Source of the DNA: a virus
DNA: 64,000 nt
IMG/VR virus record: IMGVR_UViG_3300042874_000422
Coordinates: 1-64,000 of that record
Strand: one strand, 5' to 3'
A model generated the notes under the pieces. It saw only the letters and a list, made by a program, of their open reading frames with translations, made no database searches and was not told the DNA's origin. The first letter of the stretch is position 1. Each line of letters opens with the position of its first letter. Both the position numbers and the translations under genes were made by a program. Shown in pieces: positions 8,275-62,574 of the stretch.

Positions 8275-8489
8275 TGGCCAAACGTAAGCGCAAGCAGCTC
8301 GCCGGGCTCGTCGACGATGTCCGCCATGGCTGCCGCGTCACGATCGTCACGCCGCAAGGTCAGCAGCGCACCGGTCGCGCGGTGATGCGCGGCCCTGCCG
8401 GCTGGGTGCTCAACATGGGCGGCAAGCACGGCACGCCGGGCATCGCGAGCGACAAGAACATCATCCGTGTTCACTGCAAGAGAGGCTGA
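8274..8489 (+). CDS. Small basic beta-rich protein (71 aa)
   Basis: MAKRKRKQLAGLVDDVRHGC, then a compact all-beta-looking domain (RVTIVTPQGQQRTGRAVM; GWVLNMGG) ending RVHCKRG. It shares its first seven residues with the 39-aa protein at 5790. The pattern suggests a small SH3-like or OB-like barrel, which is a guess. Confidence 0.65.
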   Translation: MAKRKRKQLAGLVDDVRHGCRVTIVTPQGQQRTGRAVMRGPAGWVLNMGGKHGTPGIASDKNIIRVHCKRG

Positions 8490-8490
8490 C

Positions 8491-8751
8491 ATGGCGAAAG
8501 CGGTTTGTATCGAACACAAAGGCGGCAAGTGCGTACGATGGCGCATCGGTGGCGCCACGGTCACGCTCGCCGGTCTCGGCGGTCCCCGAGCGTCTCGGAG
8601 AGCGCAGTCATGTGTCTCTCGCGAGATCGCCAAGCACTGCCGGAAGAAACGTGGCAAGGGCTGCAAGATTCCGTCGGTGAGCAAGCAGGCGCAGGCCATC
8701 GCTTACAGCATCTGCCGCCGCAAGGGCTTCCGCTCGATCGCAGCTCGCTAG
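8491..8751 (+). CDS. Small basic Cys-rich protein (86 aa)
   Basis: MAKAVCIEHKGGKCVRWRIG, then a helix-rich basic part with further cysteines (QSCVSRE, HCRKKRGKGCKI, SICRRKG). It is the last gene of the basic cluster and ends against a convergent gene. Likely nucleic-acid binding; no family recognised. Confidence 0.65.
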   Translation: MAKAVCIEHKGGKCVRWRIGGATVTLAGLGGPRASRRAQSCVSREIAKHCRKKRGKGCKIPSVSKQAQAIAYSICRRKGFRSIAAR

Positions 8752-15415: not shown

Positions 15416-15517
15416 CTAGCTCTGCGATCCGGCGGCTGATGCGTTGTCCGAGCCGCCGCCGGTTCCGGGCTCGTCAGGGAGCGTGAGAAGCGGGAGGTCT
15501 TTGAACCACTCGATCAC
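15416..15517 (-). CDS. Small acidic peptide (33 aa) after the recombinase
   Basis: The GTG overlaps the recombinase stop (GTGA). VIEWFKDLPLLTLPDEPG, then a Gly/Ser/Ala-rich end. It fits the overlap pattern of the operon but is short; it might also be a -1 readthrough extension of the recombinase. Confidence 0.4.
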   Translation of the reverse strand: MIEWFKDLPLLTLPDEPGTGGGSDNASAAGSQS

Positions 15518-16458
15518 GGCATCACCAGCTTCGAGAGCCAGCCCGGCGTCGAGCGGCGCGCCTCTTCGCCGAGGCGCGCTGGATCGATATACACGCCCAT
15601 GCCGGCGAGCCCTGGCAGGTTCGCCATCTTGTGACCGGTGATCGCGGCGATCTGGTAGGGCGTCAACCCCGCGACCATCCGCCACGTCACGAACGTGTTG
15701 CGGAAGATGTGCGGGTGCATGTGCTCCAGCCCGCACTTCTCGGCACGACGCTCGACGATCTTGTAGATCGACACGAGCGAGAGCCCCTCGCCGACGTTGT
15801 AGTCGAGCCGCCCCGTGCCGCGCGCGATCTTGCGATGCAGCGATCGGAACACCGAGCCGGTGGTGACCTTCTGCTTGCGCAGCCAGGCTCGCCATGGCGC
15901 GAGCGCGGCGACGGCGGTGTCGGAGAGCGGAACCGGGTAGAGCGTGTCGCCCGAGCCCTTGATCGGGACGGGCGCGACAGGGTAACCTTCTCGGGCGTTC
16001 TTGATCGTTTCGAGGGTCATGCCTTGGAGCGACATCCGACGCATGCCGGTCTCTAGGCCGACGACGAACATCGCCCGATCGCGCAGGTCGATCGGCGAGC
16101 CGGCGGCACAGGTCGCGAGCAGCGTGATGGCTTCGTCGTGGGTCAGGGCGCGGCGCGGCGCTTTGTCGTCGTCGGGCGCAGTCTGCACGACGGCGAAGTG
16201 AAGCTCGGGCTGGTTCTCCTTCTTCGCCCACCACGAGCTGGCGTGCGCGAGCGCCGCCATGATGCGGTTCGCGCTCTGCGGCTTCATGCGCTCCAGCAAG
16301 TGGTTGTAGAATTCCTGGGCTCGGTAGCGCGTCCACCCCGCTGGGTTCGTGCCGGCGAAGTCGATCCACAGGTCGATGTCGCGCAGGTAGTCGGTGCGGG
16401 TCTTCTTCGACAGCCGCAAGCTCGTCTTGACGATCTGGTGCAGGATGGTGTCGGCCAT
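15514..16458 (-). CDS. Tyrosine recombinase (integrase family)
   Basis: 314 aa. An N-terminal SAM-like helical domain (about 1-95) precedes a catalytic domain with the expected residues: R140 in GLETGMRR, H250-x-x-R253 in HPHIFRNTF, H276 in ITGHK and nucleophile Y290 in GVYIDP. It could integrate the phage, resolve genome multimers or act in replication; no excisionase or obvious att site is adjacent. Start ATG at 16458, with GGGAAG 8 nt upstream inside the spacer after the RNA ligase stop. Confidence 0.9.
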   Translation of the reverse strand: MADTILHQIVKTSLRLSKKTRTDYLRDIDLWIDFAGTNPAGWTRYRAQEFYNHLLERMKPQSANRIMAALAHASSWWAKKENQPELHFAVVQTAPDDDKAPRRALTHDEAITLLATCAAGSPIDLRDRAMFVVGLETGMRRMSLQGMTLETIKNAREGYPVAPVPIKGSGDTLYPVPLSDTAVAALAPWRAWLRKQKVTTGSVFRSLHRKIARGTGRLDYNVGEGLSLVSIYKIVERRAEKCGLEHMHPHIFRNTFVTWRMVAGLTPYQIAAITGHKMANLPGLAGMGVYIDPARLGEEARRSTPGWLSKLVMP

Positions 16459-32210: not shown

Positions 32211-32788
32211 GGGGTGTGTCCTTCCGGGTGAGGGATCTTGAGTGTGGGGTGGATGGTAGGGGTGGGGTCTGACGTCAGGCTGGCGCGCGGTGGCCCCGTC
32301 GCGAGCGCGACCAGCGCCGCGTACAGCCGGCGGGCCGCGCGACACGCGGGGCACGCGGGGAACGTGGGGGCCGGCGTGGGGCGTGCCGCCGGGCGGGCTG
32401 CGAGCGCGGCACGGACGACCGTGCGGACAACCGTGCGCAGCGTCGCGCGGACCGTCGCCGCGACCTTGCGCGCCGTGCGGGCGAGCGCCGCTGCAGCGCG
32501 GGCACGGACGAGCGCCGCCGCCCGAGCGAACGCCCGAGCGAACACGCGGCCGATTTCGGCCAGCGCGAGCATGCCCTGGCGGGCGCGGTTGCGGGGCGTG
32601 CGGGGCAGCGCCGCCACGGGCAGCGGGAGCCCTGCTTCGACCATGCGGAGCCGGTGCAGCGCGCGGCCCGACGCAGCGGCCAGGCGCCATGCCCGGGGCT
32701 CCGTGGCGGCGTTTTCCTCGGCGCGGATGGCTGCCGCGTACTCGCGGGCCAGGCGCCGCAGGAGCCGGCTGTGTTGTTTCTGGGTCAT
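32174..32788 (-). CDS. Ala/Arg-rich helical protein
   Basis: 204 aa, overlapping the next gene by 37 nt. Opening TQKQHSRLLRRLAREYAAAI, then long Ala/Arg helices (ARAFARAAALVRARAAAALA; RTVVRTVVRAALAARPAARP) and one CPACR pair. It may coat DNA or a membrane surface through its basic helices. Leader GACGGACACACCCCC precedes the ATG. Low-complexity composition makes any family call unsafe. Confidence 0.6.
   Translation of the reverse strand: MTQKQHSRLLRRLAREYAAAIRAEENAATEPRAWRLAAASGRALHRLRMVEAGLPLPVAALPRTPRNRARQGMLALAEIGRVFARAFARAAALVRARAAAALARTARKVAATVRATLRTVVRTVVRAALAARPAARPTPAPTFPACPACRAARRLYAALVALATGPPRASLTSDPTPTIHPTLKIPHPEGHTPWPPTTPLTASA
32211..32224 (-). promoter_or_regulatory. GGACAC-type translation leader
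   Basis: GGAAGGACACACCCC-type sequence before ATG 32210; it lies inside the end of the upstream gene. Confidence 0.6.
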
Positions 32789-32803
32789 GGGGGTGTGTCC
32801 GTC
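32789..32803 (-). promoter_or_regulatory. GGACAC-type translation leader
   Basis: GACGGACACACCCCC before ATG 32788, the first gene of the block. Confidence 0.55.
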
Positions 32804-33159
32804 CCGAGGGGTTGCCCCGGTGAAAACGGTTGTATCGCGATGCCCAGAATGCAGATACAAGTATTTCGTAAGTGCGTGATATTTCAGGCGAAAAACAGGG
32901 TATTTTTCCTGTTCTGGGGGGTCTAAAAACGTATTACAGGGGCCCCGAAAAACGGCCGATCCCCGGGGATCTGACTCGGATCCCTATCCGAGTCGACTCG
33001 AATGAATCCAAGTAGTTAGCCCAACCCCTTCACTGAAGGCCGAAATCCGACCGGTTCCGATCGGATCCGACCCGCCGTGCGGGCCGGTTCCGAGCAGGTT
33101 CCGAGCGGGCGCGCGGGCGGGGGGCCGCAAGCTCGCAAAGCTTGAAAGGACGTCCACGA
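32804..33159. promoter_or_regulatory. AT-rich divergent control region
   Basis: No gene. It separates the minus-strand rIIAB block from the plus-strand gene at 33160. Contents: an AT-rich island (about 32860-32935) with several TA-rich hexamers suited to minus-strand promoters, a 9-bp inverted repeat GACTCGGAT/ATCCGAGTC (32973-32994), CCCCGGGG, and repeated GGTTCCGA/CCGATCGG elements. It reads as an early promoter/operator region; an origin is also possible. Confidence 0.5.
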
Positions 33160-33447
33160 ATGGCAGGTCCACTGTGTTTTCGACTACCCGCTGATCTCCA
33201 CGCTGCCGTCGAAGATCTCGCGCAACAGGCCGGCATCAGCACGTCGGAGTGGGTCCGTGATGTGCTGTTCCGGATCGTCTACGGCGAGCCGCCGGGGATC
33301 GATCAAGGCTACATGACCGGTCGCCAGCTGGGCTTCCGGATGATGCAGCTCGCATTCAAAGACGCCTGGGACATGACGCCGATGACCGCCGAGGAGGCGA
33401 CGGAGCGGCTCGGCGTGGGTAATCCCGGGAAAGGCTCCGGGGGCTAG
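33160..33447 (+). CDS. Ribbon-helix-helix-like regulator
   Basis: 95 aa. CFRLPADLHAAVEDLAQQAG and STSEWVRDVLFRIVYGEP follow strand-helix-helix order (residues 6-42), as in small Arc/MetJ-type repressors. It sits beside the divergent control region, which is a likely target. AAAGGACG lies 7 nt before the ATG; a TTG 18 nt upstream is a weaker start. Confidence 0.7.
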   Translation: MAGPLCFRLPADLHAAVEDLAQQAGISTSEWVRDVLFRIVYGEPPGIDQGYMTGRQLGFRMMQLAFKDAWDMTPMTAEEATERLGVGNPGKGSGG

Positions 33448-33449
33448 GC

Positions 33450-33836
33450 TTATGCGTTGTAGACGTCGGCTTCGCCGGGTCCGATCGCCGTCGCCGGGTT
33501 CCAGAACAGGATGTTGACGACGAGTCCGGCGAGCCCAGCGTTGTTGATCGTCACGAACACGGTGCCGGTGGCGGTGTTGAACCACGGCTCGCCGTGCGTG
33601 ATCGGCGTGGTCACCCAGATGTCGGTCGGCGCCAGCGGGATCACCATGACGCGCGACGGAGGCTCGGTGCCATCAGCGGGGGCCGCAGCACCCGCGATAC
33701 CGAGGTTCGGCTCGGCGACAGAGCTGAGTGCGAAGCCTTGGTTCACCTGCGTGAGCCCGGTGTTGATGCTGTTCGCGCCTGCCGCCAGCGTGATGCGCTG
33801 ACGATTCCAAAGAAGCTGCCCTGCGTTCGTGCTCAT
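33450..33836 (-). CDS. MSTNAG-family virion-like protein, copy A
   Basis: 128 aa. One of three paralogues (others at 34355 and 50647). All open MSTNAG(Q/N)LLWNR and share QVNQxF, SVxEP, a SRVxVIPxxP strand, HxEP and an NILFW(N/D)P...GPGEAD end. The pattern is an all-beta sandwich of about 125 residues, suited to a capsid-vertex, spike or decoration protein. GGAGG upstream of the ATG. No known family. Confidence 0.7.
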   Translation of the reverse strand: MSTNAGQLLWNRQRITLAAGANSINTGLTQVNQGFALSSVAEPNLGIAGAAAPADGTEPPSRVMVIPLAPTDIWVTTPITHGEPWFNTATGTVFVTINNAGLAGLVVNILFWNPATAIGPGEADVYNA

Positions 33837-33890
33837 GTGGCCTCCAGGTCCGAAGATACGGGAACATCGGAGACCACGTCAAACACGGAG

Positions 33891-34358
33891 CTAGCGAGCT
33901 TCGAACGCGATCGTCACACGCGGCGAGCCACCGAAGCATGGCTCGACGTAATGCGGAACCTTCGACGGCGAGATCACGAGCAGCCCGACCTCGGGTGTGA
34001 CGCGCTCGATCCGGTCGGGGAATTCGAACACCGTGTCGCCTGAGCCTGACGTCACGTAGTAGATCCCGGTCCAGTCGCCGCTGTGCTTGTGGCGCTCGTG
34101 GTGACTGCCGTTGCGATTGACGATCGCCCACGCTTGCCACTTCTTGCGGCTGGTGTTCGCGATCTCGTCGAACGCGGCGCGCACGCGATCATGGAGCTGG
34201 CCGATCGCCGGCACGGGCCACATGAGCAAATCTTCGTCGGAGCGCCAGCCTCCCCGGTTGTAGCTCGGGTGGCTGGGCTCGTATTGAGCACGCAACAAAA
34301 TCGCGTCGTACAGCTCAAGATCGAGATGCGCGGTCGCGAGACGACGGCGATAGATCAC
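33891..34358 (-). CDS. 2-oxoglutarate/Fe(II)-oxygenase-like protein
   Basis: 155 aa, GTG start by GTGA overlap. HHERHKHSGDWTGIYYVTSG, then VGLLVISPSKVPHYVEP and SPRVTIAFEAR, matches the cupin-like core of TIGR02466/prolyl-hydroxylase-type oxygenases: His/Asp metal ligands in HKHSGD, a distal His in VPHYV and a 2-oxoglutarate Arg near the end. Substrate unknown. It sits between two MSTNAG paralogues and may modify them. Confidence 0.7.
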   Translation of the reverse strand: MIYRRRLATAHLDLELYDAILLRAQYEPSHPSYNRGGWRSDEDLLMWPVPAIGQLHDRVRAAFDEIANTSRKKWQAWAIVNRNGSHHERHKHSGDWTGIYYVTSGSGDTVFEFPDRIERVTPEVGLLVISPSKVPHYVEPCFGGSPRVTIAFEAR

Positions 34359-34735
34359 GCGATCGGATGATACGTCTCGGCTTCGCCGGGGCCAATCGCC
34401 GTGTGCGGGTCCCAGAACAGGACGTTGATGGTCTCGCCACCACCGCCGGTGAACGTGACGAACACGGTGCCGGTCGCCGTGTTCACCCACGGCTCGCTGT
34501 GGTCCACGTTGGTCCACTGCGAGAGGGGCGCCATCGGGATCACCTGCACGCGCGAGGCGGGCAGCGTGCCGTCGCCCGGCGCCGCGATGCCCGGAATGCC
34601 GAGGTTCGGCTCGCCGACGCTGTTCGCCGCGAAGTTCTGGTTCACTTGGCGGATGCCGGTGTCGACGAGGGTGTCACCCGCTGCGAGGGTGATGCGCTGA
34701 CGGTTCCAGAGAAGCTGACCTGCGTTGGTGCTCAT
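34355..34735 (-). CDS. MSTNAG-family virion-like protein, copy B
   Basis: 126 aa. Closest to copy A (MSTNAGQLLWNRQRITLAAG is shared exactly by both) and diverging in the middle. It is translationally coupled to the oxygenase gene. TATCTT lies 8 nt before the ATG. Confidence 0.7.
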   Translation of the reverse strand: MSTNAGQLLWNRQRITLAAGDTLVDTGIRQVNQNFAANSVGEPNLGIPGIAAPGDGTLPASRVQVIPMAPLSQWTNVDHSEPWVNTATGTVFVTFTGGGGETINVLFWDPHTAIGPGEAETYHPIA

Positions 34736-37939: not shown

Positions 37940-38341
37940 ATGGCGAAGAAAGGCCCCATCACTGGGGCGGCGGTTCGCGACGACCCGCCGGACCTCGATG
38001 ATTGGGGGCTTGTCGTACGCCCGATCTTCGCCGGTCCGGTCATCGTCATCGCGACGATCGCGGGTCCTACCGTCGGCGTCACGACGACGATCGCAGCGTC
38101 TGTGGTGCCAGCGGTGTATCTTGCCGTGAACGCTGCGCGACTCGGCGCGACGATCAACAACGACTCGGCAGGCCGCTTTCTCTACATCAAGCTCGGCGCG
38201 GGCGTGAGCGGTGTCAGCTACTCGGTTCGTCTGGGGCCACACAGCTATTACGAGCTGCCGTTCCCCGCGTACACGGGCGTGATCGAAGGTGTCTGGACCG
38301 CAGGCGTCGGCGGCTTCGCGACCGTGACCGAATTGACGTAG
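37940..38341 (+). CDS. Beta-rich virion-like protein
   Basis: 133 aa. The C-terminal module NAARLGATINNDSAGRFLYI, then YSVRLGPHSYYELPFPAYTG and VIEGVW, recurs in the gene at 39615. Such modules occur in phage particle proteins (decoration, spike or tail-associated). ATG 3 nt after the previous stop. Confidence 0.75.
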   Translation: MAKKGPITGAAVRDDPPDLDDWGLVVRPIFAGPVIVIATIAGPTVGVTTTIAASVVPAVYLAVNAARLGATINNDSAGRFLYIKLGAGVSGVSYSVRLGPHSYYELPFPAYTGVIEGVWTAGVGGFATVTELT

Positions 38342-39614: not shown

Positions 39615-40166
39615 ATGTCGCTGACGAACGCCTACACGGTCCTCTACGATTCTGCTGACGTCGAAGTCGGTACCGCCACCAACCCGCTCCGCGTGGATCC
39701 CACCGGTACGACGCCGCAGCCGGTCACCGGTACGGTCACGGCGAATCAAGGCACAGCGGCAGTCGTCGCGAGCGCGTGGCCGATCCTCGTCACCGACGGC
39801 GTTGATACCGCTGAGATCGTGAACGCCGCACCGGGCGCGGGCGCGTTCGGTCTCGTCGTTCGTATCGCAGGCACCATCTCGACCACGATCGCGCAGCCAG
39901 CCACGTCGACCGTCACTTCGGTTGTTGTGGCAGTTGCGACGACGGTGATCCTCGCTGCCAACGCGAACCGCCTGGGCGCGATGCTCTACAACGTCGACGG
40001 CACGACGTACGTCAAGCTCGCGACCGCCGCATCAAACACGAGTTTTACGGTTCGCCTCACGGCCAACTCGTACTACGAGCTGCCGTTCCCGGTGTACACG
40101 GGCGTGATCGAGGGTTCGGCCGGCGCGGGCACCAACACCGTTCTCGCCACCGAGCTGACGCCGTAA
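39615..40166 (+). CDS. Beta-rich virion-like protein
   Basis: 183 aa. Opening YTVLYDSADVEVGTATNPLR is shared in style with the next gene (EHVLLFDSAGVEM). The C-terminal module NANRLGAMLYNVDGTTYVKL ... NSYYELPFPVYTGVIEG is the same as in the gene at 37940. GGGAG precedes the ATG. Probable particle protein. Confidence 0.75.
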   Translation: MSLTNAYTVLYDSADVEVGTATNPLRVDPTGTTPQPVTGTVTANQGTAAVVASAWPILVTDGVDTAEIVNAAPGAGAFGLVVRIAGTISTTIAQPATSTVTSVVVAVATTVILAANANRLGAMLYNVDGTTYVKLATAASNTSFTVRLTANSYYELPFPVYTGVIEGSAGAGTNTVLATELTP

Positions 40167-44583: not shown

Positions 44584-45045
44584 CTAACCTCGCTTCTTTC
44601 GGCCACGGATCAAGAGGAACATGCTCAGCACGAACGCCGCGCCGCCTCCGTAGACGGCCCAGTTCGGTAGCCCGAGCCCGAGCAGCCCGGCGCCGATCGC
44701 GTTCTGGTTCTTGAGGATGTTGACCGGGTTGAGCGAGGCGCCTGGCTTTGGCGTGACCGTGATCGCCACCGTTGGCGGGGGCAGCGCGCCTTCGTCGGCG
44801 GCTTGCCCGAGGAACACCGCGAGCCCGGCGGCGCCTGATTTGATCGCCGCGATGTCGATCGCGCCGCTGTCCGTGACGAGCGCGACCGAGAGGCCTGACG
44901 CCGTGTCCGAGCCGATCGCCGCGAGCGCCTTGAACAGCGCCGCTGCCGTGGCCGATCCGATGTTGCCGTCGACGCCGATCGACGTGAAGCCAGCGGACGC
45001 TGCGAAGCGATTGATCGTGGCCTGCAGATCAGTGGCGGCTGACAT
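44584..45045 (-). CDS. Membrane protein with peptidoglycan-binding-like N-terminus
   Basis: 153 aa. TDLQATINRFAASAGFTSIG, then VDGNIGSATAAALFKAL resembles a PG_binding_1 repeat (residues 3-40). The C-terminus has a membrane segment (LPNWAVYGGGAAFVLSMFLL) followed by RGRKKRG. TAGCGT (45052-45057) ends 6 nt before the ATG. It is plausibly a virion membrane protein that touches the cell wall. Confidence 0.7.
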   Translation of the reverse strand: MSAATDLQATINRFAASAGFTSIGVDGNIGSATAAALFKALAAIGSDTASGLSVALVTDSGAIDIAAIKSGAAGLAVFLGQAADEGALPPPTVAITVTPKPGASLNPVNILKNQNAIGAGLLGLGLPNWAVYGGGAAFVLSMFLLIRGRKKRG

Positions 45046-49952: not shown

Positions 49953-50717
49953 ATGTACCCCCGAGCCATCGGCTTACTCGCGACGAGGAACCGCCACGAA
50001 CTGGCGCACCAGGCCGCGCACGCCTTTTTGGACCAGCAGTACGCGGGCGATAAGACGTTGCTCATCTATGACGACAGCCAAACGCCATTCGCCCTCTGCG
50101 ACGAATTGCGACAGTTCGATGTCGTCGTGAAGAACATCGCGCCTACGAGGCTTCCGGTGAAACGGAACCAAATGATGCGATTGGCCATCGAGCGCGATCC
50201 CGAAGCGATCTACTTCGTCTGGGATGACGACGATTACATCAGCCCGCATCGCGTGCGGCGCCAGATCGAAGCGCTGCTCGCCAACCCAAACGCCGACGGT
50301 TGCATCCTGTGCCCGTACCTGACGTACGACGTCACTACGCGAGAGGTCGCGCAGCTCGGCAAGGCGAACATCACCGGGCTACGGCTTCGCGTGTTCGCCG
50401 ACGCCACGCTCGCGTTCCGACGACGATTGTGGGAACGGCTGCCGTGGGACGAGACCCGCGATCCGAACGCTTGTTGGCGCTGGATGCGTGAACCCGTCGA
50501 CCGCATCGTCGACATCCCAGGCGATGACGACTACATCGTGATCCGTCACCCGACGAATCACACGGTAGGCATGCTCCCCAAGACGTTTCACCCTCAGCTA
50601 CGCACGCTGGACGTCCGGCTCTCGGCCGACGACGTCGAGCGGCGAATCACGGCGCGTTGTACGTGTCCGCGTCGCCAGGGCCCGCCAGCGTGTGGGGATC
50701 CCAGAACAGCACGTTGA
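49953..50717 (+). CDS. Family 2-like glycosyltransferase
   Basis: 254 aa. GT-A fold signs: PRAIGLLATRNRHELAHQAA, LLIYDDS, LPVKRNQMMRLAIE and the metal site YFVWDDDDYISP (91-94). It would transfer a sugar to phage DNA, a particle protein or the host surface. The start is uncertain because the frame is open upstream. The 3' end overlaps the convergent MSTNAG gene by 71 nt. Confidence 0.75.
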   Translation: MYPRAIGLLATRNRHELAHQAAHAFLDQQYAGDKTLLIYDDSQTPFALCDELRQFDVVVKNIAPTRLPVKRNQMMRLAIERDPEAIYFVWDDDDYISPHRVRRQIEALLANPNADGCILCPYLTYDVTTREVAQLGKANITGLRLRVFADATLAFRRRLWERLPWDETRDPNACWRWMREPVDRIVDIPGDDDYIVIRHPTNHTVGMLPKTFHPQLRTLDVRLSADDVERRITARCTCPRRQGPPACGDPRTAR

Positions 50718-51015
50718 TCTCGGCGTCAGCGGCGTTGTCGTTGCTGAAGATGACGTGGATGGTGTTCGTCACGGCGCTGAGCGTGGGCTCGCCGTGCGTG
50801 ATGAACGTCCACGCCGAGATCGGCGACATCGGCATCACCTGGACGCGCGACGGGTCCGTGAAACCCGGCTCGGCGACCGAGTTAGCGACGAAGTTCTGAT
50901 TCACCTGACGAAGTCCGGTGTCGATGTCTAGGACGCCAGGGGCGCCGCCGTTGACGCCTGCCGGAATCGTGGCCCGGATACGGTTCCAAAGGAGATTGCC
51001 CGCGTTGGTGCTCAT
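50647..51015 (-). CDS. MSTNAG-family virion-like protein, copy C
   Basis: 122 aa. The most divergent of the three (MSTNAGNLLWNRIRATIPAG; DIDTGLRQVNQNFVANSVAE; NVLFWDPHTLAGPGDADTYN). TAGAGT (51023-51028) ends 7 nt before the ATG, and the 12-nt longer start is therefore rejected. It lies next to the capsid-like genes, unlike A and B. Confidence 0.7.
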   Translation of the reverse strand: MSTNAGNLLWNRIRATIPAGVNGGAPGVLDIDTGLRQVNQNFVANSVAEPGFTDPSRVQVMPMSPISAWTFITHGEPTLSAVTNTIHVIFSNDNAADAEINVLFWDPHTLAGPGDADTYNAP

Positions 51016-51137: not shown

Positions 51138-52127
51138 CTAATCTTCGGCGACGATCGTCCACGCGCCGCCGGCGGGGCCGACGTTGCCGTTGGTGATGTG
51201 GACCGAGAGATAGTCCGCACACGGGTTGGTGAGCTGAACGTTGACGGGAACGTCTGCGGGGGCGGCGAGCTGTTCGAACGCCTTGACCTCGAAGACAGGC
51301 GTGAACGAACCAACTGGATGCTCGTTGATGTTGCGAATGAGGCCAACGCGGTAATCAACGATCTGCGCCGGAATACCGTCGAAATTGTGCGAGAGGAGCG
51401 AGATGCCGATGCTCTTACGTCCGTAGATCGGAATCATCGCGAAGTAACCCGAGTTACCAGCGCCGAGCCCCCAAAGCCCCTCGCGCGCCATCGCAGCACG
51501 CTTGGTGGGTGGCGAGAACGCGGGCAGCTTGGCGTAGAACTGGAGATGTAAAAACGGCGCTTCTGTCGGCGTGAACGCACCCGTTACGCCGAACATGTTC
51601 GTGAACTGCTGACCTGCGTAGTAGCCGGTCGTCGTTCCGAACTGACCGCCGTGCCCATTCGCACCGACACCCTGGGCCAGATCGTTGTTGGACGGCTTGG
51701 GGCCCCACGGAAACACGTAGGCGGTCCCGGCCTGCATCGCGTCCCACCACGACTGGTTCGCGGTGCCCAGCGTGGGCTCCTTCTGCGTCGCTTGCGAGAA
51801 CAGCAGCGGCGCTTCGCGCGTGATGATGCGCGGGAGACTGACGACCAGCTCGGGGAGCATGACATCAGCCGGCGGGATGTTGAGCGTCTTCAGCCGATCC
51901 CACGTGTACCAGCAACGATCGATCGTGCTGCGCGGGCCGATCGCGACCGCCGCCACCGACGACGGCACTGGACGGCTGCCGGGCGGTGGCCACTGCAGGT
52001 TGATCTCGGGTGTGACAGCGCCCGGCGTATCTGACCGAACGCCCCAGTCCGTGAATTCAAGCTCGAAGACGTCGTTGCTACGCGCGAGCGCGTCTTCGAA
52101 CGGGAAGCTGTGCAGGGATTGAGGCAT
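51138..52127 (-). CDS. Capsid-like structural protein candidate (329 aa)
   Basis: No family recognised. Beta-rich with Pro/Trp/aromatic loops (NLQWPPPGSRPVP; AYVFPWGPKPSN; FLHLQFYAKLPAFSPP; SGYFAMIPIYGRKS; DYLSVHITNGN), no membrane segment and no signal. Size and composition suit a jelly-roll capsid or penton-type protein. GGAGAG precedes the ATG. Third gene of an operon with two other beta-rich proteins. Confidence 0.65.
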   Translation of the reverse strand: MPQSLHSFPFEDALARSNDVFELEFTDWGVRSDTPGAVTPEINLQWPPPGSRPVPSSVAAVAIGPRSTIDRCWYTWDRLKTLNIPPADVMLPELVVSLPRIITREAPLLFSQATQKEPTLGTANQSWWDAMQAGTAYVFPWGPKPSNNDLAQGVGANGHGGQFGTTTGYYAGQQFTNMFGVTGAFTPTEAPFLHLQFYAKLPAFSPPTKRAAMAREGLWGLGAGNSGYFAMIPIYGRKSIGISLLSHNFDGIPAQIVDYRVGLIRNINEHPVGSFTPVFEVKAFEQLAAPADVPVNVQLTNPCADYLSVHITNGNVGPAGGAWTIVAED

Positions 52128-52139
52128 GGTCTCTCCGCG

Positions 52140-52463
52140 TTAAACGACGTCGCTGTTGGGCTTGACCGGGATTGCCTCGGACGCAGCCACCGAAATGATG
52201 ACGCCGGTGCCGATGCCGACGGCGTAGAGCGCCTGACCCGGCGCGAGGACGAACGTGTCCTCTTTGTTGATCGGAATGATCCAGGCGTTCGCGAACACAG
52301 GGATGTTCGACAGCGTGCCGACGTCATGCGCGAGCAGCGCATTGTTCGGTCCGAAGTTGCGAACGACCACACGAAGCGGCACGCCAGCGGCCTTCATCAA
52401 GGTCGCAGGATTCTGCGTGCCCTGAATCGGGAGAACGAGGCTGTTCAGCTGTGAAGGCTGCAT
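52140..52463 (-). CDS. Beta-rich virion-like protein (107 aa)
   Basis: LNSLVLPIQGTQNPATLMKA, VPLRVVVRNFGPNN, NAWIIPINKEDTFVLAPGQA, VGIGTGVIISVAASEAIP: a regular all-beta pattern. No membrane segment. Probable minor capsid or decoration protein. Unknown family. Confidence 0.65.
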   Translation of the reverse strand: MQPSQLNSLVLPIQGTQNPATLMKAAGVPLRVVVRNFGPNNALLAHDVGTLSNIPVFANAWIIPINKEDTFVLAPGQALYAVGIGTGVIISVAASEAIPVKPNSDVV

Positions 52464-52483: not shown

Positions 52484-53014
52484 CTAGCGCGTGTTCGACG
52501 GCGGTGCGACTTGCAGGAGAAACCCTTGAAAGCCCACTTCGATGCGGAGCGAGACGAGCGGATCGACGGGAACCGCCGTCGGGATCTGCGCGCCATCCCA
52601 CGTCGGCAGCGCGAGCGTGTCAACCACGACCTGGAAGCCCTCGGAGCGGATCAGGTAGTACGGCTCGGCCCACTCCCACGTCCGCTCGCTGCTGCCCTTG
52701 GTGAGCAGGTTTATCAGCGTCGGATTCTTCGTCATGATGACGTTCTTGCCGAAGTCGTTGATGCGCAGGCGCACCAATTCAGCAAGCATGTCTTGCGACG
52801 GCTGGTTCGGCAGCACGCCGTTCGCGTCGTCGAGCGCGGTGATGCGCGGGATCATGCGGTGGCACTCGAAGGGCATGTCGATGTTGTTGGTGAACACCGC
52901 GTCGGGGAACTGCGTGCCCGACTGACTGCCCTGCATGATGATTTCACCTGGCATCTCGTACGGGATGCGCATGGTGATTTCGCGATTGGCCCACGTGCTC
53001 GGAAGACGACCCAT
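52484..53014 (-). CDS. Structural protein candidate (176 aa)
   Basis: MGRLPSTWANREITMRIPYE, MPGEIIMQGSQ, PFECHRMIPRITALDD, RINDFGKNVIMTKNPTLINL, AEPYYLIRSEGFQVVVDTLA, LRIEVGFQGFLLQV. Mixed beta-rich fold. AAGGAG precedes the ATG and the promoter TGATAGGGT lies about 46 nt upstream, so this gene heads the operon. Unknown family. Confidence 0.65.
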   Translation of the reverse strand: MGRLPSTWANREITMRIPYEMPGEIIMQGSQSGTQFPDAVFTNNIDMPFECHRMIPRITALDDANGVLPNQPSQDMLAELVRLRINDFGKNVIMTKNPTLINLLTKGSSERTWEWAEPYYLIRSEGFQVVVDTLALPTWDGAQIPTAVPVDPLVSLRIEVGFQGFLLQVAPPSNTR

Positions 53015-55028: not shown

Positions 55029-55060
55029 AAGCAGCTACGCCTAAATAGGCGTAATTGCTT
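55029..55060 (-). terminator. Second hairpin after the capsid gene
   Basis: AAGCA...TGCTT enclosing TACGCC/GGCGTA at the very end of the gene. It may be an RNA-stabilising 3' hairpin or an attenuator. Confidence 0.5.
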
Positions 55061-55770
55061 TAGACAACGCTCCTCTTGATGAGGCCGTAGAGGTACGTCT
55101 TGACGTCCGCGAACGTCAGAGCCGCACCGTTGTCAGCAGCCGCCTGGCTGATGACGATCGGCGCCTCGGGCTGGAACGACATCTTGAAGCCGAGGTTCTC
55201 GCGGAGGTCGATCGGCAGGACCATCGCGTTGCGATCACGGGGCGACGGGACGCCGTTCTGCGCCAGCTCGAATGAGCTGGTCGTGGCGAACACGTAGTAG
55301 CCGTGACCCTGCGGGTAGTCCTGCATCACGCCGTACGTGTAGACCTTCCCGTTGTACGAGAATTCCAGGTACGTCACGCGATCGAACTGGAACAGCGTGT
55401 TGAGGATCGGCGGGGCCGAGAGCGCGCCCGAGCCGTCCGCGAGGACAGGCTGCGTCGGGTTCGCCGTCGGGCCGCGCATGACGCGGACCATCTTCACGCC
55501 GATGCCGTACACGTACATCTCCCACGACTGCGGCAGACCGGAGTCGCCGTTACGGGGGACGTTGGTGTCGACGCGCGTCGAGGCGCGCGTGCCGCCCGGG
55601 ATGGGCTGCGAGCGGCCAGCCGTGAACGCCTCGACCGGCGAGGTCTGGGTGTTCGTGATCTGGACGGTGCTGTAGAGCTTGTCGTCGATCCAGTCGCTGA
55701 TCGCGACCGTCTGCCCGTTGGGCAGGGTGAGGGTCGTGGTTCCGGGTGCTACGCCAACAGTTCCAGCCAT
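55060..55770 (-). CDS. Major capsid protein candidate (236 aa)
   Basis: No family recognised. All-beta pattern with many short strands (TTTLTLPNGQTVAISDW; YSTVQITNTQTSPVEAF; GGTRASTRVDTNVPRNG; EMYVYGIGVKMVRVMRG; GYYVFATTSSFELAQNG; LGFKMSFQPEAPIVIS) and a C-terminal helix (ADVKTYLYGLIKRSV). Strong AGGAGA site, a dedicated 3' double terminator and an RNA element just upstream point to an abundant protein. A jelly-roll capsid protein fits; proof requires structure prediction. Confidence 0.65.
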   Translation of the reverse strand: MAGTVGVAPGTTTLTLPNGQTVAISDWIDDKLYSTVQITNTQTSPVEAFTAGRSQPIPGGTRASTRVDTNVPRNGDSGLPQSWEMYVYGIGVKMVRVMRGPTANPTQPVLADGSGALSAPPILNTLFQFDRVTYLEFSYNGKVYTYGVMQDYPQGHGYYVFATTSSFELAQNGVPSPRDRNAMVLPIDLRENLGFKMSFQPEAPIVISQAAADNGAALTFADVKTYLYGLIKRSVV

Positions 55771-55977: not shown

Positions 55978-56670
55978 CTAGCGGCTGCCGCCGAGCAAGG
56001 TCGCGCCGTACGCAGCCGACAGACCGTGGATCTGCGGACCGCCGAGGAGCGAGACCTGGCTCGACCGCGAGCTGGGCTGGCCGAGCAAGCTCACGGGAGC
56101 CGAGCGACCGAGTGACGTACCGGCGAAGCCGGGACCCGCAACGCCCGGGATCGTGCCGACCGACTGCGGCTGTGGCGCGATCGACGGGATGCCAAGGCCA
56201 TTCAGGTAATTCATCTTCGGGATGCCGAGACCGTTCAGGTACGTCCCATCAGCCTGACGACGCATACCGAGGCCGTTGAGCGCGTTCACCTGCGCGATAC
56301 CGAGGCCGGCCATCGCGCCCGGCTCCTTCTCGACGGCGGTCTGCACGGCGGCACTCGCCACCGCGACCGGGAACAGGAGCTTCTCGATGTACGAGAGGCC
56401 CGCTGCGAGGAACGAACCAACGACGGAGCCGAGCGCCATCGGGCGCGTCGAGCGCATCGCTGCGAGGAGACCGGAGGTGCCGAGGCCCGCGAGCAGGCCG
56501 TACAGCTCGCGGTTCTTCGCGTTCTTGCCGCCCTGGACGTGAGCGAGCGCCATCGACGTCACGCCTGCGACGCCACCGCCGATGAGCGTGCCGTAAAAGC
56601 TCAGCGGACCAGCGCTGAGACCGAGGCCGAGCAGGTTGACTTCTCCGAGTAGCTTCGCGCGACGGGCCAT
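55978..56670 (-). CDS. Multi-span membrane protein with LNGLG repeats
   Basis: 230 aa. Opening ARRAKLLGEVNLLGLGLSAG, then several hydrophobic segments in residues 20-115 (SFYGTLIGGGVAGVTSMALA; YGLLAGLGTSGLLAAM; LGSVVGSFLAAGLSYIEKLL; LFPVAVASAAVQTAV). The C-terminal half repeats NGLGM/NGLGI (three copies) and SLLG. Adjacent to the capsid candidate. A major particle-membrane protein is a good guess. Confidence 0.75.
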   Translation of the reverse strand: MARRAKLLGEVNLLGLGLSAGPLSFYGTLIGGGVAGVTSMALAHVQGGKNAKNRELYGLLAGLGTSGLLAAMRSTRPMALGSVVGSFLAAGLSYIEKLLFPVAVASAAVQTAVEKEPGAMAGLGIAQVNALNGLGMRRQADGTYLNGLGIPKMNYLNGLGIPSIAPQPQSVGTIPGVAGPGFAGTSLGRSAPVSLLGQPSSRSSQVSLLGGPQIHGLSAAYGATLLGGSR

Positions 56671-58619: not shown

Positions 58620-58892
58620 CTACTTCAGAATCGCCGCGAGCCCGCCGAGAACGCCGAGACCGAGCGCGGCCACGGTGCCGACGACAATCCACTTGCGATT
58701 CTTCCACCACCATGAATCGAACATCGCGTTAGCGGCGTCGATCGGGGCGTCCATTGTACCGCCGAGGTAAGGGCCGACCGGCTGCGCCGTCGACTGCGTC
58801 ATGCCCGGCGGGAACCGCATGTCGGTGACCTGCGGATTCATCGCGGGATCCATGTTGAACTGCCACGCTGGGATGAACCCGAGGTTGTTCAT
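58620..58892 (-). CDS. Small C-terminally anchored membrane protein (90 aa)
   Basis: Polar N-terminus (NNLGFIPAWQFNMDPAMNPQ), then membrane segment KWIVVGTVAALGLGVLGGLA ending AILK. One of the run of tail-anchored proteins; GATGTAAGC precedes the start. Confidence 0.7.
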   Translation of the reverse strand: MNNLGFIPAWQFNMDPAMNPQVTDMRFPPGMTQSTAQPVGPYLGGTMDAPIDAANAMFDSWWWKNRKWIVVGTVAALGLGVLGGLAAILK

Positions 58893-58906
58893 GGCGTCAG
58901 CTTACA

Positions 58907-59221
58907 TCACTTCGGTTTCGCGAAGCCGGGCTTGCGAGCGATGGCCACGATCGGCGTGAACACCGGGAAGAGCCCACCCATGAGGAACCACCACACACCC
59001 CAGCCAATGCTGCCGTGGTTGCGCTTGATCCCGTGGTAACCACTCGCGCCTGCTGACGCGAGCGCAAGGAGCCCCCAGATCGTGTTCTTTGTGATCTTCG
59101 ACGAGTCGACGATCGGCGGTGCGTCGGTGACGACAGGTTCAGCACTGAGGTGACCGAGCCCGTTCAGCCCGTACAGCCCATGTACACCGGTCATCCCGCG
59201 CAACGCTTGCAGATTCAACAT
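58907..59221 (-). CDS. Membrane protein with LYGLNGLG motif (104 aa)
   Basis: LNLQALRGMTGVHGLYGLNG, then two membrane segments (NTIWGLLALASAGASGYHGI; GVWWFLMGGLFPVFTPIVAI) and a basic tail. The N-terminal GLYGLNGLG repeat links it to the 55978 and 56867 proteins. Confidence 0.7.
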   Translation of the reverse strand: MLNLQALRGMTGVHGLYGLNGLGHLSAEPVVTDAPPIVDSSKITKNTIWGLLALASAGASGYHGIKRNHGSIGWGVWWFLMGGLFPVFTPIVAIARKPGFAKPK

Positions 59222-59239
59222 GCGTCGATGATGCCGCTG

Positions 59240-59932
59240 CTACGCGGGGAAGTCGAGAGCCTCGGCGTAAGGGACCTCGACCGCGTACTTGTTGCGGCCG
59301 GGTAGCGTCGTGTCGAGCGCGACCCACTTCGACGGGCCGTTCTTCGGCAACCCTGCGAGCGGGAAGATGTGCGACCAGTCGTCGCTCTTGCTCTCTTTCA
59401 TCACGCGAAGGCGCGGCGTGATGCCATTGAGCGCGAGCAAGGTCGCGATCAGCACGCTCTGGTCGTCGCAATCACCGCCGCCGAATTCCAGCGTGCGCCG
59501 CGCGCTCTGATAAAGGTCGATACCCTCGACGTCGCCGTTCGGGAACTTGATCGGCGCGACATCGCCCGTGTACCGGACGTTGTCCTTGACGAAGTTGTAC
59601 ACCGCACGCGCCTCGCACTCACCATCGCGCTCGGGGCACTGCGACGTGATCTTGAGTGCGAGCTTGCGCATCTCCGGATCTTGCACCGACTTGTGGACGA
59701 GTTTCTGGATCGACGCGAGGCGCTCTTCGATCGGCATTCCTTCGCTGGCGCGAAGCGTCGTTCGCATGTTGCCGTCGGAGTAGCCGTCGATCGCCGGCGC
59801 CTCTTCGTACCGCTTCGACATGAAACGTACACGTCCGAGGCTCGCCGTCTTGCGCTGACGGTAAATGAAGTACCCGCCAAGGAGAGCGACACCGAGACCA
59901 ACGAGGCCCCATTGCTTGCGTGACAGCGCCAT
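59240..59932 (-). CDS. Membrane-anchored transglutaminase-like cysteine protease
   Basis: 230 aa. Membrane segment WGLVGLGVALLGGYFIY (about 8-24), then a transglutaminase-core domain: GGGDCDDQSVLIATLLALNG (C155), WSHIFPLAG (H188), KWVALDTT (D207). Likely a processing protease or wall-related enzyme fixed in a membrane. TACCGT (59941-59946) lies 8 nt before the ATG. Confidence 0.8.
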   Translation of the reverse strand: MALSRKQWGLVGLGVALLGGYFIYRQRKTASLGRVRFMSKRYEEAPAIDGYSDGNMRTTLRASEGMPIEERLASIQKLVHKSVQDPEMRKLALKITSQCPERDGECEARAVYNFVKDNVRYTGDVAPIKFPNGDVEGIDLYQSARRTLEFGGGDCDDQSVLIATLLALNGITPRLRVMKESKSDDWSHIFPLAGLPKNGPSKWVALDTTLPGRNKYAVEVPYAEALDFPA

Positions 59933-59940
59933 TGGTCCTG

Positions 59941-59965
59941 ACGGTATCACGCTCTATGTTAGGCT
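59941..59965. promoter_or_regulatory. Divergent promoters
   Basis: Minus TACCGT (59941-59946) serves ATG 59932; plus TAGGCT (59960-59965) ends 6 nt before ATG 59972. Confidence 0.6.
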
Positions 59966-59971
59966 CGCGAT

Positions 59972-60370
59972 ATGCTCCAGTTCTCCCCTCTTGGCTCCGT
60001 GTCCGATGACTACGTGGATTGCTTGGCCGAGGGTGGAGATGCGGACGTCTGCCGAGAGCTGCATCCGCCGACACCTGGCGCGCCCACGACCTCGCCGATC
60101 ATGACGGCGGAAGAACAGCAGATCGCTTCGAGCCATGCGTGCGACGTCTGCGACCCGAACACGCAGTGGTGTGACGGCACGACGTGTATCCCGTTTACCG
60201 TCGAAGAACAGGCTAAGTGGGCTGCTGTCGGAAAGCCGCCCGAGCAGATCGTCGTTCGGGCGAGCCCGACCCGATCGCTCATCCCCGGTGTTTCCAACAC
60301 GACGCTCGCGATCGGCGCGGCCTTGCTCGGGCTGGGTGTCATCGCCTACAAGCGCACGCGCCGAGCGTGA
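59972..60370 (+). CDS. Tail-anchored Cys-rich protein (132 aa)
   Basis: Cysteines in DCLAE, VCREL, ACDVCDPNTQWCDGTTC; C-terminal membrane segment NTTLAIGAALLGLGVIAY, then KRTRRA. It begins the plus-strand row of tail-anchored proteins. Unknown. Confidence 0.7.
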   Translation: MLQFSPLGSVSDDYVDCLAEGGDADVCRELHPPTPGAPTTSPIMTAEEQQIASSHACDVCDPNTQWCDGTTCIPFTVEEQAKWAAVGKPPEQIVVRASPTRSLIPGVSNTTLAIGAALLGLGVIAYKRTRRA

Positions 60371-60401
60371 TAGCCTACGTTCCAAGGAAGGTGAAGAAGA
60401 C

Positions 60402-60764
60402 ATGATTACGATGAACGGACTCGGAGCAGGCGGCGATAACTGCGACCCAGCAACGTCGTGGTACCAGTCCGACCCGAACATGGCGTACTACGGGAGCTGC
60501 ATCCCGTTCGCCGGCCTTCCCGGCTCAAGCTCGACCGGCCCCGCGCCGACGACGCAGACGACGGCAGCGTCTCCGTGGTGGGGCTCGCTCCTCACCAGCC
60601 TCACGTCGGGCGTGGTCAAGGGCATCGTCGGCAACGACGGTCAGCCCGCGACTCCGACGATGCCGCCGCCCAGGATGCCGCCCACGCCGTGGTACGCAAC
60701 GCCGACCGGCATGATCGGCATCGGTGTCGGTGCGGTCGCGCTGATCTTCCTGCTGAGGAAGTAA
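60402..60764 (+). CDS. Tail-anchored protein with NGLG start (120 aa)
   Basis: MITMNGLGAGGDNCDPATSW, a Pro-rich linker (PATPTMPPPRMPPTP) and C-terminal membrane segment GMIGIGVGAVALIFLLRK. AAGGAAGG upstream of the ATG. Unknown. Confidence 0.7.
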   Translation: MITMNGLGAGGDNCDPATSWYQSDPNMAYYGSCIPFAGLPGSSSTGPAPTTQTTAASPWWGSLLTSLTSGVVKGIVGNDGQPATPTMPPPRMPPTPWYATPTGMIGIGVGAVALIFLLRK

Positions 60765-61018
60765 TGCTGGCGGTCTCACCAGCAAAGCAACCGCTCGCCG
60801 GGATTCTCGATAACTTCATCGACTCAGTCACCGGTAGAGCCGTCTCCAGCGCGACCACCGCCGCACAACCGCTGCTCGACGACGTCGAGCGACGAGTCAA
60901 GGCGCTCATTCTGCCTGTGGTCTTCTTCACCGCCGGTAGCTTCTTGATCGGGCTACTCACGTACCGCGAAGTGGCCAAGCGATCGAAACCGGTCGCGGGA
61001 CTCCGAGGGCGCCGATGA
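60764..61018 (+). CDS. Tail-anchored protein (84 aa)
   Basis: Helical N-terminus (GILDNFIDSVTGRAVSSATT), membrane segment ALILPVVFFTAGSFLIGLLT and basic end (KRSKPVAGLRGRR). TAATG overlap with the preceding gene, ATGA with the next. Confidence 0.7.
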   Translation: MLAVSPAKQPLAGILDNFIDSVTGRAVSSATTAAQPLLDDVERRVKALILPVVFFTAGSFLIGLLTYREVAKRSKPVAGLRGRR

Positions 61019-61314
61019 TTCTCCTGAACCCGAACGTTGGCGTTGCGCCAGGCACCACGACCATGCAGCTCGGCGAAGCGTGCGCGCCGGATCCGATCGA
61101 GCCCGAGTCGCCGTTCACGCAGATGGTCACGACGTACGCGCCGTCGTCGACGACACTCGACACCGGCGTGGAGCTGTGGATCCCGTACCAAGACACCGTT
61201 CGCTTACGTGGGCTCGGTGAGATTGCGCCGCCGCGCTGGGGGCTCGTGCTGCTCGCCGGACTCACCGCGTTCGGCATCGTGCTCGGATTGCGACGTTGGC
61301 GCGCCAAGCGTTGA
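61015..61314 (+). CDS. Tail-anchored protein (99 aa)
   Basis: Beta-rich front (VGVAPGTTTMQLGEACAPDP), then membrane segment GLVLLAGLTAFGIVLGL and end RRWRAKR. The front VGVAPGTTT also opens the capsid candidate (MAGTVGVAPGTTTLTL), a shared peptide worth noting. Confidence 0.7.
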   Translation: MILLNPNVGVAPGTTTMQLGEACAPDPIEPESPFTQMVTTYAPSSTTLDTGVELWIPYQDTVRLRGLGEIAPPRWGLVLLAGLTAFGIVLGLRRWRAKR

Positions 61315-61332
61315 GCGTGATACCGTAGCCGC

Positions 61333-61776
61333 ATGCTCGGTTTCATTCCCGCGCCGATGGGCCAGAAGGTCCCCGGGCAGTACCCGAATCAGATCCAGTA
61401 CAGCTACGGCGGCGACGGTCACTACCTCTGTCCCCCGGATCCGCGGTTCAACCAGCACGGCGAGATCGGGATGTACTACGACACGCCGCTCGGTGGCCCA
61501 CAGATCCCGACGGACGCAGAGCTGGCGACCGTCTACGGCCGGACACCGGTCGCGAGCGCGTGGATCACCGCCAAGGAAGGCTACTTCCCGTCGCCGTGGC
61601 GACCGCCGGGCGGCTGGAACCCCGCTGGCGCATGGGGCCCGCAGCCGAGCTTGGGCGCTGCGCCCATGATCTTCTACAAGTTCGGCATGTCGCCGCTACT
61701 GTGGGGGCTCGTCGCGGGCGCGGGCGGGCTCCTCTGGTGGATGACGCACAAGACCAAGCCGCGTCGGAGGCGTTAG
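61333..61776 (+). CDS. Tail-anchored protein with Pro/Trp-rich ectodomain (147 aa)
   Basis: GFIPAPMGQKVPGQYPNQIQ, WRPPGGWNPAGAWGPQPS, then membrane segment MSPLLWGLVAGAGGLLWWM and tail THKTKPRRRR. TACCGT (61321-61326) ends 6 nt before the ATG. The front FIPA recalls the 58620 protein. Confidence 0.75.
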   Translation: MLGFIPAPMGQKVPGQYPNQIQYSYGGDGHYLCPPDPRFNQHGEIGMYYDTPLGGPQIPTDAELATVYGRTPVASAWITAKEGYFPSPWRPPGGWNPAGAWGPQPSLGAAPMIFYKFGMSPLLWGLVAGAGGLLWWMTHKTKPRRRR

Positions 61777-62016
61777 ATGCTGACGCTCGGGCTCGGTGAT
61801 CCCGTCGATCTGACGTTGCCAGAAACGGCGACGGCGACCGAGACACAGGCTGTGATCGCCGCGCTCAACGCGCACAACGATCGTGTTTTCAAGGTCACGC
61901 TGATCTCGACGATCGTTGTCGGGCTCGCAGCGGCGCTCAACACGCTGCGCACGTTCCGCACCCTTCAGCGCGAGGAAGCGCGCGAGATGGCTCTCTTAAA
62001 AAGGCTCAAGAAATAA
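61777..62016 (+). CDS. Single-span membrane protein (79 aa)
   Basis: LTLGLGDPVDLTLPETATAT, then membrane segment KVTLISTIVVGLAAALNTL and a charged end (ALLKRLKK). Directly follows the previous stop. Confidence 0.7.
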   Translation: MLTLGLGDPVDLTLPETATATETQAVIAALNAHNDRVFKVTLISTIVVGLAAALNTLRTFRTLQREEAREMALLKRLKK

Positions 62017-62330
62017 TGGCGAAGCAAGCGGCTCTCCCGACGTACCGCACTGCCGCTCGCGTTCTTGAGGGCGAAAAGGGTTCGGGCATTCGCCTCGCCG
62101 GCTGGACAGTCGCCCGCACGCTCATGATCGCACCGCCGATGATGATCGTCGGTGTTCCGATCCGGCAGGCGTTCACAGGCGCGGCGCTCTCGTCAGCGCT
62201 GATCAGTCTGTTCACGGTGATCCGCCTCTTCGATGCACGGCAGACCGGCATGGCCGGGCTCGACTATGGCAAGCAGATGGCCGGGCTCACTCGTCGACGG
62301 CCGGTTCGCCGGCGCTCTTACGCAAGGTAA
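62016..62330 (+). CDS. Two-span membrane protein with Arg-rich tail (104 aa)
   Basis: Membrane segments WTVARTLMIAPPMMIVGVPI and AALSSALISLFTVIRLF, tail TRRRPVRRRSYAR. TAATG overlap. It overlaps the convergent gene by 44 nt. Confidence 0.7.
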   Translation: MAKQAALPTYRTAARVLEGEKGSGIRLAGWTVARTLMIAPPMMIVGVPIRQAFTGAALSSALISLFTVIRLFDARQTGMAGLDYGKQMAGLTRRRPVRRRSYAR

Positions 62331-62574
62331 GAATCAGCGGGATCGACGGCCAGATCACGCCGAACACGATCGACGAGCCCGTGATCAGGAGCAGCTCTTG
62401 GATGTCGAGCGGTTCGTCGATCACGTGACGCCGGGCCGCTTCGTAGAGCAGCACGACACTGGTCATCGTCACAAGGATCGCGACGGCGACGTACGTTGGC
62501 CCGACGAATACCGCGACAGCGCCCGAGATGAACAGCGCGAAGACAATCTGACCAAGTGCGGTGAGGAACTGCAC
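62287..62574 (-). CDS. Three-span membrane protein (95 aa)
   Basis: GTG start 6 nt after a phage promoter box. Segments GQIVFALFISGAVAVFV, YVAVAILVTMTSVVLLY and LLLITGSSIVFGVIWPSIPLI, acidic end (GEPAVDE). Holin-like topology, but far from the lysis genes. Confidence 0.7.
   Translation of the reverse strand: MQFLTALGQIVFALFISGAVAVFVGPTYVAVAILVTMTSVVLLYEAARRHVIDEPLDIQELLLITGSSIVFGVIWPSIPLILTLRKSAGEPAVDE

Follow-up and report, generated by a model that had tools for sequence, protein, structure and literature searches.

A complete 77-kb circular virus genome with a run of small basic-tailed membrane proteins: probable member of a new lineage of tailless phages of unusual size

In the known lineages of tailless membrane viruses, most members carry a packaging ATPase, and genomes measure 17–31 kb in Halopanivirales/Singelaviria (SH1, P23-77: tailless, with an internal membrane) and 10–15 kb in Tectiviridae/Corticoviridae (PRD1, PM2), the latter combining a double-jelly-roll capsid protein with many small virion membrane proteins and anchored lytic enzymes. 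Among the tailless membrane phages compared here, the Salisaeta phage SSIP-1 is the largest (43.8 kb); its architecture is of the PRD1-adenovirus type and includes an internal membrane, and it was reported as scarcely resembling anything in GenBank (PMC6356626). The virus genome studied here (IMGVR_UViG_3300042874_000422; the window is the stretch of 64,000 nucleotides from its position 1) is complete and circular, with a length of 77,412 bp; circularity is read from a 127-bp overlap of the ends, and we infer dsDNA. Together with 26 related database contigs of 39–221 kb it makes up 27 records, of which 12 are circular (77–138 kb) and the longest is open (221 kb); no description of this virus lineage was found in the literature searched. 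The initial annotation had proposed a tailless membrane-containing virus larger than known tecti- or corticoviruses. The size comparison holds (77.4 kb versus 10–15 kb), and the proposal as such is supported at the gene level by the lack of tailed-phage genes in the 27 records and by homologues of SSIP-1 gp34 and gp48. We consider it quite likely that the genome is that of a large, SSIP-1-like tailless membrane phage. Since tailed-phage machinery is missing and the membrane-protein run lies around two proteins related to SSIP-1 virion proteins, it probably represents a new phage lineage, tailless and of unusually large size.

The run of small membrane proteins with basic tails, from which this proposal had started, was confirmed and comprises 11 genes at 58620-62574:

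58620..58892, minus strand: 90-aa membrane protein, one C-terminal span (homologues in G002, G003, G004)
58907..59194, minus strand: 95-aa membrane protein, basic C-tail (span test; homologues in relatives)
59240..59932, minus strand: 230-aa membrane-anchored transglutaminase-like enzyme (Pfam PF01841, 7e-7; SSIP-1 gp34 homologue)
59999..60370, plus strand: 123-aa C-tail-anchored protein, basic tail; start possibly at 59972 (span test)
60402..60764, plus strand: 120-aa C-tail-anchored protein, basic tail (span test; weak homologues)
60764..61018, plus strand: 84-aa membrane protein, basic tail (span test)
61015..61314, plus strand: 99-aa C-tail-anchored protein, basic tail (homologues in relatives; span test)
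61333..61776, plus strand: 147-aa C-tail-anchored protein, terminal KPRRRR (homologues in G002, 5e-42, G004 and G003)
61777..62016, plus strand: 79-aa membrane protein, basic tail (homologues in relatives; span test)
62016..62330, plus strand: 104-aa membrane protein, RRRPVRRRSYAR tail (span test; homologue in the Gemmatimonadota provirus)
62287..62574, minus strand: 95-aa protein, three spans (homologues in relatives; span test)

Clear transmembrane spans (Kyte-Doolittle, 19-residue window of at least 1.6, uncharged core) occur in 9 of these 11 genes versus 16 of 122 in the remaining genome (Fisher p=3e-6), and lowering the threshold to 1.3 gives 10/11 versus 32/122 (p=4e-5). In 8 of the 11, the span is C-terminal and a net-basic tail comes after it; the exceptions are the enzyme at 59240-59932, which has an N-terminal Gly-rich anchor, the protein at 62287-62574 with its three spans and acidic end, and the one at 58620-58892, with a single Lys at the end. 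Such C-tail-anchored basic proteins account for 12.8% of the genes in this genome versus 1.7% in lambda and 4.3% in T7 under the same calling, and, when this genome is pooled with five relatives, for 41 of 210 genes at most 10 kb from the enzyme gene versus 53 of 1086 elsewhere (p=4e-11). At least the genes at 58620, 58907, 59240, 61015, 61333, 61777 and 62287 are real, because relatives carry homologues at the same position. Among the further places where the initial annotation had listed proteins of this type, a span near a basic end is present at 5967, 8748, 12355, 13063 and 44584, whereas the spans at 10380 and 37368 are N-terminal; at 7254 there is a real frame (7254-7577, plus strand) ending in GRRRR, and the protein at 55978 is hydrophobic and Gly-rich and lacks the basic tail.

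The link to SSIP-1 starts from the transglutaminase-like enzyme, in which Cys155, His188 and Asp207 are invariant in four aligned relatives, and which was detected in 24 of 25 family records searched. SSIP-1 gp34 is its only phage-record match in 50,697 records (tblastn 3e-9; profile 8e-19, all controls at 0.5 or above), and both proteins contain Transglut_core. Further links come from three other genes:

37940..38341, plus strand: 133-aa homologue of SSIP-1 virion protein gp48 (profile 3e-6)
39615..40166, plus strand: 183-aa paralogue, likewise a homologue of gp48 (profile 3e-7)
44584..45045, minus strand: 153-aa C-tail-anchored protein similar to SSIP-1 endolysin gp31 (1.5e-4)

Controls for the gp48 profile gave values of at least 1 against the first and at least 0.7 against the second of these genes, except SSIP-1 gp44 (0.0055 and 0.014, respectively); a reverse single-sequence search did not return the gp48 match. 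Both gp34 and gp48 carry a structural-protein annotation in the SSIP-1 record. The two viruses also have in common a circular dsDNA, an integrase and Gly-rich C-terminal anchors, the SSIP-1 virion proteins gp34 and gp53 showing a terminal Gly-rich span and then a short Lys-bearing tail, and in both a hydrophobic protein (in SSIP-1 the virion protein gp44) directly precedes the candidate capsid genes. They differ in genome size, in their replication genes and in host phylum, and the transglutaminase-like protein is anchored at the opposite end. Moreover, gp40 of the SSIP-1 virion, a RecA-like ATPase (AAA_25), had no homologue in profile searches of this genome, and the SSIP-1 capsid candidates gp45/46/47 have no sequence or profile similarity to the capsid candidate described below.

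Five minus-strand genes provide the candidates for the structural module, which is common to two clades with differing replication genes:

51138..52127, minus strand: 329-aa structural-module protein, less conserved (homologues in relatives)
52140..52463, minus strand: 107-aa conserved structural-module protein (homologues in relatives)
52484..53014, minus strand: 176-aa second universal protein, candidate second capsid protein (27 of 27 records)
55060..55770, minus strand: 236-aa candidate major capsid protein, all-beta, two-clade family (homologues; AF2 model)
55978..56670, minus strand: 230-aa hydrophobic Gly-rich protein adjoining the capsid candidate (conserved in both clades)

Homologues of the 236-aa protein were found in 27 IMG/VR contigs and two genome contigs, and it is conserved in every record. 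Its AF2 model (pLDDT 81.9) is all-beta, with only about eight main strands; another AlphaFold model, from ten close homologues, was discarded at pLDDT 35. All 50 of the 50 PDB fold matches listed are viral jelly-roll capsid proteins, but none is significant (best PDB match E 0.046, TM below 0.3; BFVD 0.006). Profile comparison of the five proteins with the structural proteins of PRD1, PM2, FLiP, SH1, P23-77 and SSIP-1 returned nothing, including PRD1 P3, PM2 P2 and the FLiP capsid protein, and the 236- and 176-aa profiles had no meaningful match among PDB sequences. The candidate pair (176 and 236 aa) resembles in size the two small beta-barrel capsid proteins of SH1 (185 and 232 aa).

An alternative is a tailless membrane virus of Singelaviria or tectivirus type whose similarity to SSIP-1 is incidental, gp34 and gp48 having been borrowed horizontally. 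As transglutaminase-like folds are widespread, the shared gp34 could indeed be a borrowed gene, and the capsid-like proteins, small and single-jelly-roll-like in size, lack sequence similarity to the capsid candidates of SSIP-1. We nevertheless consider such an origin unlikely, given that two independent SSIP-1 virion proteins match, one of them as the sole match in its search, that the C-terminal Gly-rich anchors are of SSIP-1 style, and that the structural proteins of P23-77, SH1, PM2 and PRD1 show no similarity here. Still less probable is a pleomorphic membrane virus that buds and has no capsid, or else an extrachromosomal element, with the beta proteins at the surface. The numerous membrane proteins and the failure to recognize a packaging ATPase would suit it, but it accounts poorly for two soluble proteins present in every record, one of them all-beta and with jelly-roll capsids as its fold matches, for the homologues of icosahedral-phage virion proteins, and for several peptidoglycan lytic enzymes.

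The initial annotation had recognized no terminase or portal in the window. For the complete genome and its 26 relatives, profile searches run with positive controls for terminase (PF03237, PF03354), portal (PF04860) and HK97 capsid (PF05065) gave nothing above cut-off in the 27 records, and scans of the whole proteome of this genome against PHROGs and Pfam were likewise negative. A TerL match in G027 (E 0.01, 11 bits) fell under the cut-off and was judged a chance hit. The early genes (PolA, Sak4, rIIA/rIIB, ThyX, dCMP deaminase and endonuclease VII in proteome scans) are typical of tailed phages and might point to one with head and tail genes too divergent to recognize, its small membrane proteins serving lysis or superinfection exclusion. 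The SSIP-1 virion protein homology argues against this, as does a P-loop scan of this genome (G000) and of G002, G003 and G004, in which conserved P-loops were confined to Sak4 and a D5-like helicase, with an SNF2 helicase in addition, so that no terminase ATPase motor is left; we regard a tailed phage as very improbable. An FtsK/HerA-type packaging ATPase, which the initial annotation had suggested looking for outside the window, was not recognized in this genome by family search or P-loop scan. Family search detected HerA in 8 of the 27 records (9 counting a C-terminal fragment), and neither HerA nor terminase is matched in 9 of the 12 circular members; HerA was therefore rejected as the common packaging ATPase. 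Two other candidates were dismissed: the 534-aa P-loop protein at 71837-73441, because the PHROG families it weakly matches are DNA primases, its motifs resemble a D5-like helicase and it sits among replication genes, and the Sak4-like protein at 76523-77395 (PHROG Sak4, 5e-24).

Returning to the large SSIP-1-like tailless phage, a conserved block unites the 236-aa all-beta, the 176-aa, the hydrophobic Gly-rich and the transglutaminase-like proteins amid C-tail-anchored basic membrane proteins. The 236- and 176-aa proteins may build the shell, with the small membrane proteins in a lipid layer underneath. The positive-inside rule would place the basic tails of these proteins initially on the cytoplasmic side. 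Should the membrane wrap the condensed genome, the tails would bind that genome; should a vesicle pinch off, as happens in PRD1, they would bind the inner face of the shell. Maturation or cell-wall penetration might be the task of the transglutaminase-like enzyme together with the anchored lytic enzymes (M23, SLT, GH25), while the phage would replicate its DNA with a PolA/D5-like/SNF2/Sak4 set of its own. Only tentatively do we envisage tailless membrane phages of 77 to more than 200 kb as a lineage at the level of an order or class, whose shell is filled without a dedicated packaging ATPase, shell and membrane assembling round a circular genome condensed by the phage's own small basic proteins, in a proposed likeness to the assembly of polyomaviruses around chromatin. 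Basic proteins are encoded at 6275-8751.

A family of phages far larger than SSIP-1 is now linked to it, and the packaging of a 77–138 kb circular genome without a recognizable motor becomes a testable question. Marker-based virus surveys would tend to overlook or misfile such genomes because every tailed-phage hallmark is absent; candidate capsid genes and marker profiles are now available for finding further members. The genome also encodes a tyrosine integrase, suggestive of temperate potential and of possible integration:

15514..16458, minus strand: tyrosine integrase (PF00589 and PHROG integrase in proteome scans; homologues in G002-G004)

One relative is inserted as a provirus in a Gemmatimonadota chromosome.

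Terminase and portal genes, whose lack in the window was among the grounds on which the initial annotation proposed a tailless, membrane-containing virion, are, like HK97 capsid genes, missing from the complete genome and from related records, as judged from profiles and motif scans. The record measures 77,539 bp; since the 127 bases that open it recur at its end, we consider the genome circular, with 77,412 bp. End overlaps of 76-127 bp, matching assembler k-mers in size, also occur in eleven relatives; circularity is assembly-based, and the genome may also be linear and circularly permuted. A simple homemade script called 133 proteins and missed one real gene, 7254-7577 (+). PHROGs and Pfam scans of the 133 proteins revealed DNA metabolism, rIIA/rIIB, lytic enzymes and an integrase, with no terminase, portal, capsid or tail family among the matches listed. 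The 91 unassigned proteins, scanned separately, yielded 15 weak or uncharacterised PHROG families, including a 'lytic tail protein' (0.0016). Neither packaging nor head proteins were among these PHROG matches, and Pfam gave nothing of that kind. Family searches of 27 records, each of which recovered its target in control genomes, gave no Terminase_6N, portal or HK97 capsid match and no TerL_ATPase above cut-off. For one divergent-clade genome, none of these families appeared among the best 25 of 69 PHROG families. The rIIA/rIIB lysis-inhibition homologues lie at 22970-26286 (-), though the genome is devoid of tailed-phage structural genes.

The FtsK/HerA-type packaging ATPase anticipated as the alternative did not materialize: the family search found no HerA-type (PF01935) ATPase in this genome. 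Eight records encode one and a ninth a C-terminal fragment; it is present in 3 of 12 circular genomes, and its neighbourhood consists of replication genes in both genomes inspected. In a second test for tailed-phage genes, conserved P-loops, scanned in this genome and three relatives (G000, G002, G003, G004), proved confined to the D5-like helicase and Sak4, besides an SNF2 helicase. The HerA (DUF87) ATPases of relatives G011 (189878-191599) and G020 (32608-34335) carry a C-terminal extension, and their distribution is patchy; beside the one in G011 lies another match to the 176-aa family (191743-192186), the second in that genome.

The structural candidates are as follows:
52484-53014 (-), 176-aa protein, candidate second capsid protein
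55060-55770 (-), 236-aa protein, candidate major capsid protein
59240-59932 (-), transglutaminase-like enzyme, 230 aa

A search with the 534-aa helicase retrieved relatives of 85-138 kb, partly collinear with this genome. The 236-aa protein is the most conserved structural-looking gene (65-81% identity among nearer relatives); iterated searches traced it, down to 34% identity, to 27 IMG/VR contigs of 17-221 kb, one 'Actinomycetes' MAG contig and one Gemmatimonadota chromosome. The 176-aa protein occurs in 27 of 27 records searched, the transglutaminase-like enzyme in 24 of 25. Because these three genes are common to two clades whose replication genes largely differ, they constitute a separate module, most simply a virion module. 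In divergent-clade G020 (L094, L095; at ~13-23 kb), a glycosyltransferase-like gene block lies near the capsid module, with a Pfam match in one. Three paralogues beginning with MSTNAG(Q/N)LLWNR, at 33450-33836, 34355-34735 and 50647-51015 (all -), are possible decoration or fibre proteins; a 221-kb relative has two copies as well.

An AlphaFold model of the 236-aa protein with 30 homologues (pLDDT 81.9, pTM 0.75; an earlier, poor model from ten sequences was left out) is all-beta, comprising some eight main strands plus a single helix. In the jelly-roll comparison proposed initially, all 50 PDB matches listed were jelly-roll capsid proteins of viruses (noda-, papilloma-, polyoma-, circo- and picornavirus, iridovirus). 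E-values were no better than 0.046, however, and TM-scores were below 0.3, apart from one row at 0.30 by target length. BFVD returned mainly capsid proteins (best E 0.006). These matches suggest a jelly-roll capsid fold without proving it.

In relatives, inteins interrupt the transglutaminase-like protein exactly at the cysteine of GGGDC|DD:
L040:3584-5287, intein (Pfam Intein_splicing 3e-5)
L060:184-1671, intein
L057:3195-4199, intein
G021 shows signs of insertion there too. This exact placement makes the cysteine a likely active-site residue.

A tblastn search with the enzyme against 50,697 records matched one phage, SSIP-1, through its protein gp34 (E 3e-9). SSIP-1 is tailless and has an internal membrane and capsid proteins of two types, in an architecture of the PRD1-adenovirus type (PMC6356626). 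The family profile matched gp34 at 8e-19, whereas no control, among 243 other-phage proteins and 285 shuffled sequences, scored better than 0.5. Annotated as structural in the SSIP-1 record, gp34 shares the Transglut_core domain and has a C-terminal Gly-rich span. Profiles also linked the proteins at 37940 and 39615 to gp48 (3e-6 and 3e-7), likewise annotated as structural; in the reverse test, gp48 alone did not match either single sequence. The order gp44 (hydrophobic virion protein)-gp45-gp46-gp47 resembles 55978 (hydrophobic)-55060-52484-52140/51138 here, with no profile similarity between counterparts. As two defining SSIP-1 proteins are matched, but the capsid candidates and gp40 are not, we do not claim membership in the SSIP-1 group. 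This virus probably works like a tailless membrane phage.

A Gemmatimonadota MAG chromosome (CP070815.1; L066-L081), the source of the only host assignment for any relative, carries an integrated relative in two blocks ~1.4 Mb apart, the replication half near 2.23-2.28 Mb and the structural half near 3.66-3.72 Mb; this is either a provirus later divided, as after inversion, or a misassembly.

The run of about nine small membrane proteins with basic tails described at 58620-62574 was confirmed: 9 of its 11 genes encode a clear membrane span, versus 16 of 122 other called genes (p=3e-6), and in the products of 8 of the 11 a C-terminal span leads into a basic tail. With the same homemade gene caller and hydropathy test throughout, C-tail-anchored basic proteins account for 12.8% of genes in this genome, as against 1.7% for lambda and 4.3% for T7. 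Across six family genomes they concentrate within 10 kb of the transglutaminase-like enzyme gene (41/210 versus 53/1086 farther away; p=4e-11), and the divergent clade repeats this style near that gene. A separate group of genes at 6275-8751 (+) encodes small proteins, most of them strongly basic (six have net charges of +12 to +31), that are candidates for condensing the genome; G002, G004 and G011 have homologues of some of them.
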